Of a DNA stretch of 64,000 nt, positions 29,372-36,013 are shown piece by piece (the first letter of the stretch is position 1; each line of letters starts with the position of its first letter). This DNA is from Paucidesulfovibrio gracilis DSM 16080. GTDB taxonomy: Bacteria > Desulfobacterota > Desulfovibrionia > Desulfovibrionales > Desulfovibrionaceae. Below the pieces are notes generated by a model. It made no database searches. It had not been told where the DNA came from and worked only from the letters and a program-made list of their open reading frames with translations. The DNA is taken from positions 124,001 to 188,000 of the forward strand of contig NZ_FUYC01000002.1 of the NCBI RefSeq assembly GCF_900167125.1, in the 5' to 3' direction. Made by a program: the position numbers and the translations under genes.

Positions 29372-30346
29372 ATGACCCGTTGTTCTGTTGATGAAAATGT
29401 CCGCCCCCGCCGTCTGTCGGAGTTTATCGGCCAGGTTGAGCTGCGTGCCAACCTGGAGGTGTTTCTGCGTGCGGCCCGGGAGCGCGAACGCGCCGCCGAC
29501 CATACGCTGTTTTACGGCAATCCTGGCCTGGGCAAGACCACTCTGGCCAAAATCATCGCCTCGGAGATGGGGGTAAACCTGGTTTCCACATCGGGTCCGG
29601 TCATGGAGCGGTCCGGGGATCTGGCGGCGATTCTGACCAATCTACAAGCCCAGGACATATTGTTTATTGACGAAATTCACCGCATGCCCGCCAGCGTGGA
29701 GGAAGTGCTTTACCCGGCCATGGAGGATTTCAAACTGGATCTGGTCATCGGCCAGGGACCAGGCGCACGCACGGTGAAAATCGACCTGGAACCCTTCACC
29801 CTGGTGGGTGCGACAACACGTCTGGGGCTGCTGACGTCTCCCTTGCGCGACCGTTTCGGTTGCATCTTTCGCATAGATTTTTACAGTCCCGAGGAATTGG
29901 CCCGCATCGTTCATCGAGCTTCGGGGATTCTAGGCATGGAGGTTTCGGACGAAGGCGCGTTGGCCATCGGCCGCCGGTCCCGGGGAACCCCACGCATCGC
30001 CAACAGGCTGCTGCGCCGGGTGCGCGACTACATGGTGGTGGCGGGGAAGGACTGCGTGGACCAGGAACTTGCGGAAATGGCCCTGCAACGCCTTGACGTG
30101 GACCCGCACGGCCTGGACTACATGGACCGCAAGATTCTGGATGTGGTGGTCCACCAGTTCGGGGGCGGGCCGGTCGGAGTCAAAACCCTGGCTGTGGCCT
30201 GTGCCGAGGAGGTCCGAACCATTGAGGATATTTATGAGCCGTATTTGATCCAATGCGGCTTTTTGCAACGCACGCCCCGGGGCCGCGTGGCCACGGCCAA
30301 GGCTTACCGCCACCTTAAGGCCGATCCCGAGCCGGGCCTGCTGTGA
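29372..30346 (+). CDS. ruvB: Holliday junction ATP-dependent helicase RuvB
   Basis: 324 residues. Walker A is [11 protein letters not shown] (near residue 49-59), Walker B is ILFIDEIHR, sensor 1 is GATTRLG, and the arginine finger segment is LRDRFG. The C-terminal winged helix ends with [15 protein letters not shown]. RuvB forms hexameric motors on both sides of RuvA. It is the last intact gene of the rlmE-yebC-ruvCAB run. Confidence 0.96.
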
Positions 30347-30405
30347 TACTTGGCGCGGGCTTCCGCCCCACGCACTTTTCCACCAGTCTGCCAAAGGGGT
30401 TTTCC

Positions 30406-30863
30406 ATGTTTCGCCGGACCTCGTGTTGTCTTGCGCTGTTGTTGCTGGCCGGACCCTTTTCCGCCCGTGCCTGAGCCGTGTATACGGGCTGGCCCGAACA
30501 ACCCGCCCCGGGCGTGACCGAGGTCATCGGCCTGGCCGGAAAAGACGGGACCGAGGCTATCTACATGTCCGAATTCCATGGCTCAAGCGTTGTGGGCATC
30601 TCTATCGCCACGTATTCGAAGCGTTTTGAACAGCACTACGCGGACAATTCCACAACGGCATGCCCCGGTTTTTGACTTCCTATGCGCTGTACCGAGCAAA
30701 TCCCCTGGAGGATGCCTCGGCCCAGGTTCAGGACAATGGCCGTTGGATCGCTTTTTCTTCCATTGGCCCGGAAATAGACCGGGTCGCATATATTGAAAAA
30801 TTGACGCAGAAACAGGTTTGTTTTCGCACAGAGGGGACGTTGGACTGTTATAGGCGACAATAG
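30406..30863 (+). pseudogene. Broken secreted-protein gene (in-frame TGA and frameshift)
   Basis: ATG 30406 opens a good signal peptide of 22 codons (MFRRTSCCLALLLLAGPFSARA), then an in-frame TGA at 30472-30474 falls exactly at the expected cleavage point. The same frame continues open with AVYTGWPEQPAPGVTEVIG for 66 codons to a TGA at 30673. Its likely continuation (FLTSYALYRANPLED to the stop at 30863) is one frame over; adding one T to the T5 run at 30669-30673 would join them. Restored, the product would be about 151 residues, secreted, with several cysteines. Either the gene is dead with two lesions, or the T run is a sequencing error and the TGA is read as selenocysteine. Confidence 0.6.
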
Positions 30864-31327
30864 TTGAATAAAAAGTCCCTTTGGGACGTTGTTATTATCC
30901 TGCGTTTTCAACGGATGGGGGCATGCGTTCAACCCGACTCCGGTAGCGCAGGTGTTTTTTTTGAGCGGGTATCCCACAATATCTTGTATTGTTATCACAA
31001 ATTGCGAGATAAAAAAGGGCGTTCGTCTGTTCCCCTTGTTTTGTGGTCGGGACGGCAAAACCGTACGAAAAGGCCCATGATTCCTTGGTTGGCGATCCGA
31101 GAATTGTTGACAGGATTGGCCAATCCCGTTATTTGGGAGAAAGGCTACAAAAGTTCTAGAATTTGTCGTAAAAGTGCGTCGAGAGAAGCTGATTTTCCAG
31201 TATTTTTTTTGGAGGCGCAGGCGCGATTCGCGATTGCCATGACATGTAGCCAGGGGCAAAGTCTTGGTTTTTCGGCCTTGAGGCGGAAGAAGCATGGGTC
31301 TGCAGCCGCGTCGCAAGGAGAAGTCTT
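30864..31327. other. Regulatory region upstream of the pilus operon
   Basis: About 464 bases without a convincing gene. A short GTCCC-TTT-GGGAC hairpin lies at 30876-30888, just after the broken gene. The likely promoter of the pilus operon is at 31107-31135. The leader from there to the first start codon is about 190 bases and could hold further control elements, but none was identified. Confidence 0.55.
31107..31135 (+). promoter_or_regulatory. Candidate pilus-operon promoter with a palindrome in the spacer
   Basis: A perfect -35 box TTGACA (31107-31112) is followed after exactly 17 bases by TATTTG (31130-31135), a weak -10. The spacer begins with a perfect 14-base palindrome GGATTGGCCAATCC (31113-31126). 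A protein bound there would block RNA polymerase or, with a weak -10, could activate. Confidence 0.42.
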
Positions 31328-33205
31328 GTGGGCAAAAGGAACAGAGCGGATTCCACGGAAGCCCTGCTTGACGTCATTCGTGATGACGGTGAGCAGCGGT
31401 TGAATTTTCCGCAGTCGGCTTCCAAGGCGCCACGTTCCTCCCGACGGCAGAAGAAAAAAAACAAGCCTTCCAAAACCTCTTCCACTTCTTTGCGCACAGC
31501 GCGTCCTTCTTTGTTTTCCCGCAGCCGTAGCGCTGTTCTCGGCGTGGACATCGCCCAGGACACCATTACAGTCGTGAAGATGACCCGGGGTGATTCTCCG
31601 AAACTGCTGGATATTCAATCCGTGGCGTTGGAATCCGGGCTGGGTGTGGAGGAGCCGGGTCTTTCCGAGAAATTGCAATCCGTGCTGGGGCGCGTCGGAT
31701 CTCGCGGGTGTGATATTTGGGTGCTGCACCGTGCGCCGGATGTGGAAATCGGTGTTTCGCGGATTCCCCGCGTCAAGAGAGGGGAGCTGGCCAACACGGT
31801 GTACTGGCAGCTGCAAAAGGAGCGGCGGTTCAACAGTGCGGAGTTTGTGTTGGACTTTCGCGTCCAGGACGCCGCGGTCAAGGAAGGGGAGGTACCCAAG
31901 ATCGAGGTGCTCACCAGCCTTGCTGGTCGTGCGGATGTGGAGCGGCTTCGGCATCGATTTCGGGATGCCGGGTATTCCATTGCCGGGGTCACGGCTATTC
32001 CTGCTGCTTTTCAGAACATTTACCGCACCGGTTGGGCGGCTTCACGGTCGGGGCTGACAGCCAACCTGCATGTCGGAGCCACATTTTCCAGCATCACGAT
32101 CTACGAGGGCGCCGGCATTCGTTTCAGCCGGAGCATCAAATTCGGGCTGGACTCCATGGCCGAGGAATTGCTGGATAGCTACAACCGGGGTGAGCTGACC
32201 AAGGGGATGCCCGGGCATGAGCTGGACCAGCACGGGGCGCGGCTGCTGATTCTTGAGAAGCTCCTTGACGGGCCGCGAGCCAAAGGTGGTCCCGGCGGGG
32301 AGCTGAATAAGGCCCAGGTTCTCGAGTCCGTGCGGGATTCGTTGGAACGTGTGGCCCGGCAGGCAGAGCGTACGCTGGATTACTATGCACAGAATTTTCA
32401 TCAGCGTTGCGAAACCCTGCACCTGAGCGGCCGCATTTTCGGCAGCCCGGAGGTGGCGGAGTATGTGTCCGGCCAGTTGGCCTTGGACATGGAGATTTTC
32501 GATCCGCTCGGGGATCTGGATCTTTCCAGGCTTTCCGGACGGACCAGCCTGAGCGGACGCATGGCCATGAACGAGGCCGTGGCCGTGGCGCTTTCGGATC
32601 AGGGCAAGACCCTGAATTTTAGCCACAACTATCAGGCCCGGCGTCGCGACCGGACACGGGCCATGGTGGGCAATGCGGTATCCGTGTTCGTCATGGTCAT
32701 GGCCTTGCTGCTGGGCGGATTGTACGTCTGGAGCGGGGAGACCATCGCGGACCTGACCCAGAAGGCCCGGGAGATGGAAGAGCGGATTATGCCGGAGATG
32801 GCCCTGGACGAGGCGTCACTGGCCCGGCTTTCCGCCGAAGTCGGAGCCTATCGCGCCCGTATGCGCAACGTGGCCGAACGCTATGAGGCGTTGGCCGTGC
32901 TCACGGAATTGCAGCGGATAACTCCGGAGCGGGTGCGGCTTTTGAATATGAATATGGAGCTGCGTGTCGCGCCCGGCAAGGGGACGGCACAGCCCGCCGC
33001 CGGGGAGTCGCCCGTGCGCCTGCTGGTGCTGGATATGGTCATTCTCGGCGGCGAGGAAAATTTTGAAACGGATCTGACGCGGTACCTCATCGCGCTCAAG
33101 GCGTCGCCGTTGTTCGGCGATGTGGTGGTCCAGCAAGGCGAAGTGCGTGATTTCATCCCGGAAGGGGATGTTTTTCACGTGGTTTTGCATGTGCAAATGG
33201 CATAG
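31328..33205 (+). CDS. Type IV pilus PilM-PilN fusion (MshI/GspL-like)
   Basis: 625 residues from GTG 31328, with AAGGAG seven bases upstream. Residues 1-70 are basic and disordered. Residues about 70-430 are a PilM-type actin-like domain (AVLGVDIAQDTITVVKMT, NLHVGATFSSITIYEG). A single transmembrane segment at about 445-465 is followed by a periplasmic PilN-like coiled coil and ferredoxin-like domain. PilM and PilN are usually separate. GspL of type II secretion and MshI of MSHA pili share the joined layout. It anchors the cytoplasmic ATPase to the periplasmic alignment complex. First gene of the pilus operon; the PilO gene starts eight bases later. Confidence 0.85.
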   Translation: MGKRNRADSTEALLDVIRDDGEQRLNFPQSASKAPRSSRRQKKKNKPSKTSSTSLRTARPSLFSRSRSAVLGVDIAQDTITVVKMTRGDSPKLLDIQSVALESGLGVEEPGLSEKLQSVLGRVGSRGCDIWVLHRAPDVEIGVSRIPRVKRGELANTVYWQLQKERRFNSAEFVLDFRVQDAAVKEGEVPKIEVLTSLAGRADVERLRHRFRDAGYSIAGVTAIPAAFQNIYRTGWAASRSGLTANLHVGATFSSITIYEGAGIRFSRSIKFGLDSMAEELLDSYNRGELTKGMPGHELDQHGARLLILEKLLDGPRAKGGPGGELNKAQVLESVRDSLERVARQAERTLDYYAQNFHQRCETLHLSGRIFGSPEVAEYVSGQLALDMEIFDPLGDLDLSRLSGRTSLSGRMAMNEAVAVALSDQGKTLNFSHNYQARRRDRTRAMVGNAVSVFVMVMALLLGGLYVWSGETIADLTQKAREMEERIMPEMALDEASLARLSAEVGAYRARMRNVAERYEALAVLTELQRITPERVRLLNMNMELRVAPGKGTAQPAAGESPVRLLVLDMVILGGEENFETDLTRYLIALKASPLFGDVVVQQGEVRDFIPEGDVFHVVLHVQMA

Positions 33206-33213
33206 GGGCGAAC

Positions 33214-33771
33214 ATGTCCACTTGGCAGGAAGAATACAAGACCGTGGTGGTCAAGGCGGTGGGGGCGGTGGTCTGCTCCCTGGTGGTCGCCTGGATCTTC
33301 CTGGTGCCGCAGTTTCAGGAGTTGGTGTCGTTGCGTGAGCGGATTCACGACGCTGAAGAACGTCTGGAGCGTCAGGCCTTGTTTTTGCCCGAGTACGCAC
33401 GCCTGCACCGGCAGATGGAGCCGCAGTCCGAGGGCGCGTATGACGTGCCGCCCACCGAACCCGTGGATGTAAATACCATTGAGCGGTTGCCGTCGGAGAT
33501 GATCCGCCTGGCCGGGGATGCGGGCTTGCAGGTGCTGGATGTGGTGGTCAGCCCCGGGTCGCTGCGCACCGGGCAGGGCCGCATGATGATGCAGTGTGTG
33601 GTGCAGGGCGGGCTGGACGGGTTCAAGCAGATGTATCGAGCCTTGGCTGCGTTGCCCTATCTGGACAGGGTGGACCGGGTGGAGATGCGTGCGGCCCCTG
33701 GGGGCGCGGAATTTTTCCTGGAGCTGTGGGTTCTTTTGGAGGACCAGCGGACCGCCGGGGGGCAGGGATGA
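33214..33771 (+). CDS. PilO-like alignment-complex protein (MshJ position)
   Basis: 185 residues: a short cytoplasmic N-terminus, one transmembrane helix (about 13-32), a coiled coil (about 35-65), and a periplasmic ferredoxin-like domain with LAGDAGLQVLDVVVSPG and the C-terminal FFLELWVLLED. This is the PilO/GspM plan. Together with the PilN-like domain of the preceding protein it should build the inner-membrane platform. The stop overlaps the next start by four bases (ATGA), so translation is coupled. Confidence 0.78.
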   Translation: MSTWQEEYKTVVVKAVGAVVCSLVVAWIFLVPQFQELVSLRERIHDAEERLERQALFLPEYARLHRQMEPQSEGAYDVPPTEPVDVNTIERLPSEMIRLAGDAGLQVLDVVVSPGSLRTGQGRMMMQCVVQGGLDGFKQMYRALAALPYLDRVDRVEMRAAPGGAEFFLELWVLLEDQRTAGGQG

Positions 33772-34295
33772 AAAAGAGCGAAAAGATTTTGCTTGGCGTC
33801 CTGGCCGTGGTGTTGCTCTGGGCCGGATATATTTTGCTTTTGGATCCGAAGTCGGAATCCTCAATCCCGGAAGGCGGCGCAGGCGCGTATAAGACCCAAC
33901 TGGAGACCATGCGTCAGGATCTGGAGAAAAGCGCACTCACAGAAAAGGAACGTCGCATTGTGGCGCTCCTGGGCGAACACGCGCAAAACCGGCTGTTTTA
34001 CGCCGCGGACCGGCAATTTTATTTTACGGACGGCGAGGCGTTCGACACAGGCGACGAGGAAGCCATCGTGTACAGCGGATATTTGCAGGCCGGAAACGCG
34101 GCCTTTGCCATCATCAACGGCATTGAATACTCGGTGGGCGACCAGTTGGCGGTTTCCGGCTACCGGGTCAAGCGCATTGCCCCCGGGTTCGTCACCGTGG
34201 AGCACCTCGACCCGAATACGGGGCGGGCCTTTGAGCGGCGCATTCCCCTGGCCGAGGATGGTGTGGACGACGTAAGCCTGAAGGCGGTCTACTGA
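33768..34295 (+). CDS. PilP-like periplasmic linker protein (MshK position)
   Basis: 175 residues from ATG 33768. One N-terminal transmembrane helix (about 7-25) is followed by an extended helical linker and a C-terminal beta domain (about 95-175) with INGIEYSVGDQLAVSGYRVKRI. This resembles the homology region of PilP/GspC that contacts the secretin. The position between PilO and the secretin supports this. Sequence similarity is weak, so the assignment rests partly on gene order. Confidence 0.72.
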   Translation: MKKSEKILLGVLAVVLLWAGYILLLDPKSESSIPEGGAGAYKTQLETMRQDLEKSALTEKERRIVALLGEHAQNRLFYAADRQFYFTDGEAFDTGDEEAIVYSGYLQAGNAAFAIINGIEYSVGDQLAVSGYRVKRIAPGFVTVEHLDPNTGRAFERRIPLAEDGVDDVSLKAVY

Positions 34296-34297
34296 CG

Positions 34298-36013
34298 ATG
34301 AAGCCCTTTGTCCGATTTTTCATGGCCCTTTTCCTCTTCATCGGGGTGCTGGCCGGTTGTGCCTCCACATCCGAGCCGGATGCGATGGATCCGGAGATGG
34401 AAAAGTGGCGCATCATGGCCGAGCAGTCCCAGGGGCATTCCCCGTCGGCGCGCACCGAGGAACTGGACCGTTTCGAGGAAGTGGAAACCAGGGCCGAAAC
34501 CCTGGAACCCGAGGAAAAGAAGCAACCCAAAAAGCTTCCTGATTTCCGAATCACCCTGCGTATGCACAACGCCGATCTCGTGGCCGTACTTCAGGCGCTC
34601 TCCCGCGCCGCCAAGCAGAGCATCGTGGTCAGCCCCAGCGTGCAGGGCATGGTCAACATCAACATTGTCAAGACGCCCTGGGCCGAAGTGTTCAAGGGGG
34701 TGCTCAGTGCCAACCGGCTGAGTTACGCCTGGGAGGGCGACATCATCCGGGTGATGACCGCTGAGGACATGAAATACGAGCTGGAGATGGATCAGTTGCG
34801 GACGCAGCGGCAGGCCGAGCGGCTGGCCCAGCAACGCGCCGAACCCTTGGTCACCAGCATTATGAAAGTGAAGTTTTCCGACGCCGCGGCGCTGAAGGAA
34901 AATCTGGCTCCATTCCTGGCTAAGGACGGGGAGGGCGAACCGATCGGTTCCATCGAGGTGGACGAGCATACCAACGCCCTGATCGTCAGCAGCATCCGTT
35001 CCGATGTGGACCGGCTCATGCGCATCGTGACCCGGCTGGACGCGCCGCGTTCCCAGATCAAACTCAAGGCCCATATCGTGGAAACCACACGGGATACGGC
35101 CCGCGCTCTAGGCGTGCAATGGGGCGGCTCCTACCAGGGCAACCTTTATGATGGGTCCAATCTGTACGTCAATCCGGGCGGAACGACCGGCAGCACCACC
35201 TCCCAGTCCACCGGGGAGAGCCGCATGGGAACCTACGATCCCACACTGGGGACCGGTCCGTCCGGCAAGGGCGTGGGGATCAATTTGACGCCAAGCGGAT
35301 TCGACGAAGGCGGGACCGGCCTTTCCCTGGGCATGATGTTCGGCAACGTGGGGGAAAACCTCCTGGAAGTGCAGCTCAAGGCGCTGGAGCAGGATAACAA
35401 GCTCCGGATCATCTCTTCGCCGTCCATCACCACCATGGATAACCAAAAGGCCTACACCGAATCCGGTGAACGGGTGCCGTACGCTACCACCGAGACCAGC
35501 GGCGGCGTGGTCACCACCACCGTGAAGTTCGAGGAGGTGGTGCTCCGCCTGGAGATTACGCCCCACATCATCGATGATCAGTACATCAAGCTCAACGTGC
35601 TGATTCAAAAAGACGAAGTGGACGAATCCCGCGAGGTGGACGGAAACTATTTCATCCTCAAGAAAAAGACCGAAACCACGCTTATTGCCCGCGACGGCGA
35701 GACCGTGGTCATTTCCGGTCTGAGCAAGCAGCGTTCCTACCGCAACGAGGACGGTGTGCCTTATCTCAAGGATCTGCCCGGCGGCAATCGGTTGTTCGGC
35801 AGCGAGAGCAAGCAGGACACCATGGATGAATTCATGATCTTCATCACTCCCACGGTTTTGGCCAAGTGGGTGGCTGGTGAGCGGCAGAAAACGTTGCAGG
35901 AGATTGAGGAAGAGTTGGAAATCAAACGGCTTGAAGAACTTGAGGCTAGGCGTAAGGACGCGCGGGGCAAGGCCGGAGAGGGTTCGGAGCAAGCCGGGGG
36001 AGCCGGGCAATGA
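34298..36013 (+). CDS. mshL: Type IV pilus secretin (MshL/PilQ-like lipoprotein)
   Basis: 571 residues. A lipoprotein signal (VLAGC, Cys near residue 21) targets it to the outer membrane. A secretin-type N-domain (about 85-150) is followed by an N1 domain (about 180-250, with IGSIEVDEHTNALIVSS). The secretin core (about 255-520) contains the glycine/serine-rich gate region, VPYATTETSGG and the signature VVISGLSKQR. The C-terminal tail is charged. It is short like MshL and has one N1 domain, unlike long PilQ proteins with AMIN domains. It forms the pilus exit pore. Its last codons overlap the next gene by four bases. Confidence 0.92.
   Translation: MKPFVRFFMALFLFIGVLAGCASTSEPDAMDPEMEKWRIMAEQSQGHSPSARTEELDRFEEVETRAETLEPEEKKQPKKLPDFRITLRMHNADLVAVLQALSRAAKQSIVVSPSVQGMVNINIVKTPWAEVFKGVLSANRLSYAWEGDIIRVMTAEDMKYELEMDQLRTQRQAERLAQQRAEPLVTSIMKVKFSDAAALKENLAPFLAKDGEGEPIGSIEVDEHTNALIVSSIRSDVDRLMRIVTRLDAPRSQIKLKAHIVETTRDTARALGVQWGGSYQGNLYDGSNLYVNPGGTTGSTTSQSTGESRMGTYDPTLGTGPSGKGVGINLTPSGFDEGGTGLSLGMMFGNVGENLLEVQLKALEQDNKLRIISSPSITTMDNQKAYTESGERVPYATTETSGGVVTTTVKFEEVVLRLEITPHIIDDQYIKLNVLIQKDEVDESREVDGNYFILKKKTETTLIARDGETVVISGLSKQRSYRNEDGVPYLKDLPGGNRLFGSESKQDTMDEFMIFITPTVLAKWVAGERQKTLQEIEEELEIKRLEELEARRKDARGKAGEGSEQAGGAGQ

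Follow-up and report, generated by a model that had tools for sequence, protein, structure and literature searches.

Does the plus-strand stretch 30406–30863 of this Paucidesulfovibrio gracilis DNA represent a gene in decay, a gene in which TGA is read as selenocysteine, or an intact gene that is distorted by errors of a draft assembly? The question arises from a reading frame which begins with a signal peptide, meets a TGA directly behind it and appears to be continued in another frame. All positions refer to the window, that is, the whole stretch of DNA that was analysed, with a length of 64,000 nucleotides.

Layout and coding signal of the locus

The plus-strand frame that starts at the ATG at 30406 comprises 22 codons (MFRRTSCCLALLLLAGPFSARA, from the frame translation) and then the TGA at 30472–30474. 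After this first TGA follow 66 open codons (30475–30672), closed by a second TGA at 30673–30675, where a T5 run at 30669–30673 produces the stop context TTT TGA. The other plus-strand frame (position mod 3 = 0) is open from 30630, after a TGA at 30627–30629, up to the TAG at 30861–30863. The initial annotation had described a signal peptide ending at the TGA with 66 open codons behind it, and coordinates and translation agree with this description. The features of the locus and its surroundings are the following:

29372–30346, plus strand: intact open frame of 324 amino acids which we take to be ruvB, a member of the RuvB family; ends 59 bases 5′ of the broken gene
30394–30399, plus strand: Shine-Dalgarno-like AAGGGG, 6 bases 5′ of the ATG, read from the sequence
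30406–30471, plus strand: signal peptide coding part, 22 codons with RR, a leucine-rich core and an ARA end, recognised by eye from the translation
30472–30474, plus strand: in-frame TGA, the putative first lesion
30475–30648, plus strand: first part of the putative former mature protein (mod 3 = 1; 0.358 bits per codon over 58 codons)
30643–30657, plus strand: likeliest zone of the change of coding frame, the putative second lesion, from a likelihood scan over break points
30648–30863, plus strand: second part of the putative former protein with its TAG end (mod 3 = 0; 0.040 bits per codon, 71 codons)
30875–30887, plus strand: small hairpin GTCCC-TTT-GGGAC 3′ of the stop, possibly a remnant terminator, with its T run on the minus strand
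31328–33205, plus strand: intact PilM-like gene downstream (PilM_2 match), which opens a pilus/type II secretion-like set

Terminator-like sites were not above chance (2 found, with a mean of 1.7 in shuffles), and at Rfam gathering scores a tRNA was the sole match within the window.

Open frames of 60–70 codons are frequent by chance in this GC-rich window; codon bias rather than frame length is what counts. A codon table was trained on eight genes of the window, with each stop charged at −5 bits; the training genes themselves score 0.349–0.689 bits per codon, which is a partly circular yardstick. The signal peptide part, the 22 codons before the TGA, reaches 0.207 bits per codon. The 58 codons that start at 30475 give 0.358 bits per codon in the ATG frame and −0.690 and −0.482 in the other two frames. 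Such a score together with the absence of any stop was reached by only 12 of 3465 overlapping wrong-frame windows inside the training genes and by none of 20,000 first-order Markov sequences. The tail (30648–30860) scores 0.040 bits per codon versus −0.487 and −0.546 in its two other frames. This signal is weak, its score being reached by 429 of 3285 wrong-frame windows, 294 of them open; among the Markov sequences 13 of 20,000 match the score and are open. The codon usage indicates former coding sequence, with the last part being weak in this respect.

When a single break point is allowed, the optimum lies with the last first-frame codon at 30643–30655 (22.1–24.6 bits), whereas a break at the T5 run (codons 30667 and 30670) yields 15.8–16.6 bits. 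Without a frame switch the score falls to −26.9 bits, with three stops accounting for −15 of them. A shift of the coding frame from one frame to the other near 30645 is well supported. Probably, the change lies about 15–25 bases before the T5 run and not at this run, where the initial annotation had placed a slip; that position is outscored in the scan.

The T5 run in front of the second stop (TTT TGA) could serve as a slip site, and the whole protein might then be made by programmed frameshifting combined with stop readthrough. We give this explanation a negligible chance, since codon usage sets the frame change 5′ of the T run and nothing that was found supports a double recoding within one small orphan gene. 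The canonical slippery heptamer has the form X XXY YYZ. A programmed −1 frameshift would call for such a slippery site, but at the frame change no such heptamer was seen by eye.

It is also quite unlikely that the locus was never a gene and consists of a leucine-rich start and two frames that are open by chance. The commonness of frames of this length, the lack of convincing homologues (see below) and the weak codon bias of the tail all fit this explanation. However, in the first part the codon bias typical of real genes is confined to the correct frame, behind a ribosome site and a signal peptide. The signal then passes to the second frame close to the point where that of the first one fades. 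Two further open frames were tried as candidates and rejected: a minus-strand frame of 226 codons over the locus and a plus-strand frame of 179 codons after the gene have codon scores of −0.194 and −0.173, respectively, and neither has a match in Pfam or PHROGs.

The selenocysteine question

The genome uses selenocysteine, as is evident from selB, tRNA-Sec and two fdhA genes with an in-frame TGA. SelB, which the initial annotation had suggested looking for, is encoded with 367.5 bits (cut-off 242.25), and the best match to tRNA-Sec has 81.9 bits (gathering score 47). Two further tRNA-Sec matches, with 48.7 and 47.1 bits, probably represent ordinary tRNAs; the threshold of this model was also passed by 5 of 14 control genomes. 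Both formate dehydrogenase genes carry one in-frame TGA each (HQARI-TGA-HSATVAAL) and were used as positive controls for the SECIS hairpin from the same genome. In passages of one paper, this hairpin is described as lying just 3′ of the UGA, with a small apical loop containing a guanosine (PMC1088965).

Both fdhA genes have a hairpin (−17.0 kcal/mol) behind the TGA, and its loop of three bases, GGC or GGG, starts 23 bases after the TGA. Among 60 codon positions drawn at random from the window, 3 have a hairpin of this grade. The best hairpin behind the TGA at 30472–30474 has −12.6 kcal/mol and a 12-base loop with one G, starting 22 bases after the TGA, and is equalled at 14 of 60 random codon positions; the next-best one has a CCC loop. 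Within 40, 50, 65 and 100 bases from this TGA the sequence folds no better than its shuffles (z 0.96, 0.84, 0.37 and −0.50), and for the 50-base stretch 157 of 200 shuffles fold as well. The control stretches of fdhA are moderately better than shuffles (z −1.15 and −1.28). A small-loop SECIS-like hairpin, as present in both fdhA genes and as the initial annotation had proposed to look for, was thus not found after this TGA.

In view of these results, a translation of the TGA as selenocysteine, which would then occupy mature position +1 of an exported protein, is very improbable; the initial annotation had considered this alternative. In favour of such a reading are the selenocysteine machinery and the two TGA-containing fdhA genes of the genome, the location of the TGA directly 3′ of the signal peptide, and a best hairpin whose loop starts at nearly the distance observed in fdhA and holds one G. 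The size of this loop, the CCC of the next one and the frequency of equal hairpins at random positions stand against it, as does the folding at the level of shuffles. No convincing homologue, and hence none with a cysteine at this position, was detected among the 348 genomes of the class and the 395 of the phylum, and a frameshift is needed as well, for which selenocysteine does not account. Moreover, an ARA end is no lipobox, and it is ARA that precedes the TGA.

With bacterial selenoprotein genes such as the two fdhA genes, the locus shares an in-frame TGA and the presence of selB and tRNA-Sec in the genome; it differs from them by the lack of a small guanosine-loop hairpin and of a cysteine homologue and by the additional frameshift. 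An exported orphan selenoprotein with selenocysteine as its first mature residue, its UGA read in spite of the missing classical SECIS and its chain completed by a frameshift, is scarcely credible. If the selenocysteine reading were true, the residue would be placed at the extreme N-terminus of an exported protein. To our knowledge, this position is not found in any known selenoprotein.

Search for relatives and the genomic neighbourhood

Searches for homologues were carried out in genome sets of the family, the class and the phylum, which overlap. At E 0.1 or better, 30 of 288 genomes of the family gave a match, among which the own copy alone was strong. In the class (348 genomes, E 0.01) the own copy alone was retrieved, and in the phylum (395 genomes) the own copy and one weak match. 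When the two halves were searched separately in 59 related genomes, one gave the own copy and three weak matches, the other only the own copy. The plasmids contributed a single match (E 0.2), the phages none, and the best value among solved structures was E 0.79. Nothing convincing was obtained for the broken gene in Pfam, NCBIfam and PHROGs. The same is true for genome contigs and viral contigs, which were covered by an insensitive scan seeded on exact 8-residue words that gave no match even for the PilM-like neighbour.

Of the weak rows of the family search, the 19 of 30 for which a locus was available were inspected and the 11 rows without a locus were left out; the weak loci from the 59-genome and phylum searches were inspected as well. 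All inspected weak matches were judged to be chance. At eight places (L002 = L010, L004, L007, L008, L012, L014, L018, L022) a shared C-terminus FRARAEAVYGD merely aligns with the signal peptide. By eye, these proteins are radical-SAM-like. One frame (L009) is antisense to a frame that resembles a glycosyltransferase by eye, a second match (L023) is limited to the leucine-rich signal, and a third (L070) lies inside an intact 427-residue frame of another kind. A convincing intact homologue, as looked for with a pseudogene, was not found among the 288, 348 and 395 genomes, the plasmids, the phages and the viral contigs. As judged from these searches, the broken gene is an orphan, with no convincing homologue in the genomes covered.

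A further weak match (L011) led to a family of small exported proteins with the motif GIHGGTMPVSLLV in the same taxonomic family (L011 1480–2004, L071–L100). A search started from L011 detected it, with an E value of 0.01 or better, in 107 of 288 genomes, and in none of the three of the window's genus. These proteins resemble the broken gene in having a signal peptide followed by a similar short stretch, GW.E.PA.G. However, the profile comparison is unconvincing: against a 30-member GIHGGTMPVSLLV profile, hhalign gave a probability of 6.0 when the signal peptide was included (pair E 0.0063) and of 0.2 when it was removed (E 0.37), and hmmsearch with this profile gave −0.6 bits. On these scores the GIHGGTMPVSLLV family was rejected as a relative.

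The genes on both sides are conserved in the genus. Orthologues of ruvB are 92–93% identical in both other genomes, and those of the PilM-like protein 63% and 57%; the PilM_2 match of the latter has 23.3 bits, under the curated cut-off of 27. In these two genomes ruvB and the PilM-like gene are located on separate contigs. When 30341–31500 was compared with the DNA that follows ruvB there, blastn gave nothing below E 1.5 and tblastx nothing below E 0.012 (21 residues), and 5′ of the shared leader of the PilM-like gene other genes are found, as seen by eye from translations. The junction of ruvB and the PilM-like gene appears to be species-specific. Downstream, the region 31328–36013 encodes the PilM-like protein, two small proteins that match nothing in Pfam and a secretin that weakly matches a GspD-like N0. 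These genes may be regarded as a reduced set of the type IV pilus or type II secretion kind, whose PilM-like member is below the Pfam cut-off.

The leader just mentioned (31107–31161) is a conserved element about 190–220 bases 5′ of the PilM-like gene. It consists of TTGACAGG, then GGGAGAAAGGCTACA, with a palindrome around TTCTAGAA. All three genomes of the genus have a single copy of its 15-base core, always at that place, and the core is also present in two further genomes of the 288 in the family, where the surroundings are different. The TTGACA of the leader is a perfect −35 hexamer. As a −10, however, TATTTG at a distance of 17 bases is poor, and the pair is absent from the output of the promoter scan. 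Folding of the leader as RNA is not clearly better than that of shuffles, so that it is more likely an operator bound by a protein than a riboswitch.

A putative orphan pseudogene

Taken together, 30406–30863 is very probably a pseudogene, an orphan gene knocked out by a nonsense mutation together with a frameshift. Several observations argue for this. Codon usage runs through the TGA in one frame and changes frame near 30645, and both lesions are found within 200 bases while the neighbours ruvB and the PilM-like gene are intact. In addition, the junction is species-specific as far as visible, there is no convincing homologue, and the TGA is not followed by a small-loop SECIS-like hairpin. The frame is broken by the TGA and by the frame change, and a coding signal is present on both sides of the lesions (0.207, 0.358 and 0.040 bits per codon, the last being weak). 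The weakness of the tail, whose score is equalled by 429 of 3285 wrong-frame windows, is a counterweight to this reading. The initial annotation had favoured a decaying gene with two lesions, and this proposal is supported by the TGA at 30472–30474, the frame change near 30643–30655 and the coding signal across both.

The main rival is an intact gene in the organism, with the TGA and the frame change being errors of the draft assembly. The assembly is a draft of 53 contigs, the lesions are known from its sequence alone, and the two frames have no other stop, which would suit such errors. However, two unlike errors, a base change and an indel, would be required in one short gene, the best-placed indel lies outside the T5 homopolymer, and the assembly has ratings of 99.85% for completeness and 0.3% for contamination, with flanking genes that are intact. 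Hence we consider this explanation unlikely and infer that both lesions are fixed mutations and not read errors.

According to the pseudogene reading, the ancestor would have been a gene of roughly 150 codons for a small protein without known relatives, which was presumably exported, as its signal peptide suggests. A nonsense mutation may have arisen just 3′ of the signal peptide, and a net frameshift near 30643–30655 would be the second lesion. Translation, if it still starts, would stop at 22 residues and deliver the signal peptide only. Since the remnant is otherwise without stops, it would have to be young, which is a point against this reading. With other bacterial pseudogenes that go back to a nonsense mutation plus a frameshift it shares the premature stop and the frame change, a preserved coding signal, ribosome site and signal peptide, and intact neighbours; the difference here is that no parent family can be recognised.

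The locus would add one more apparently young orphan pseudogene, situated in a variable spot between two conserved genes, a case of little weight alone. It also illustrates that, even where the genome makes use of selenocysteine, an in-frame TGA alone does not count as evidence of recoding.
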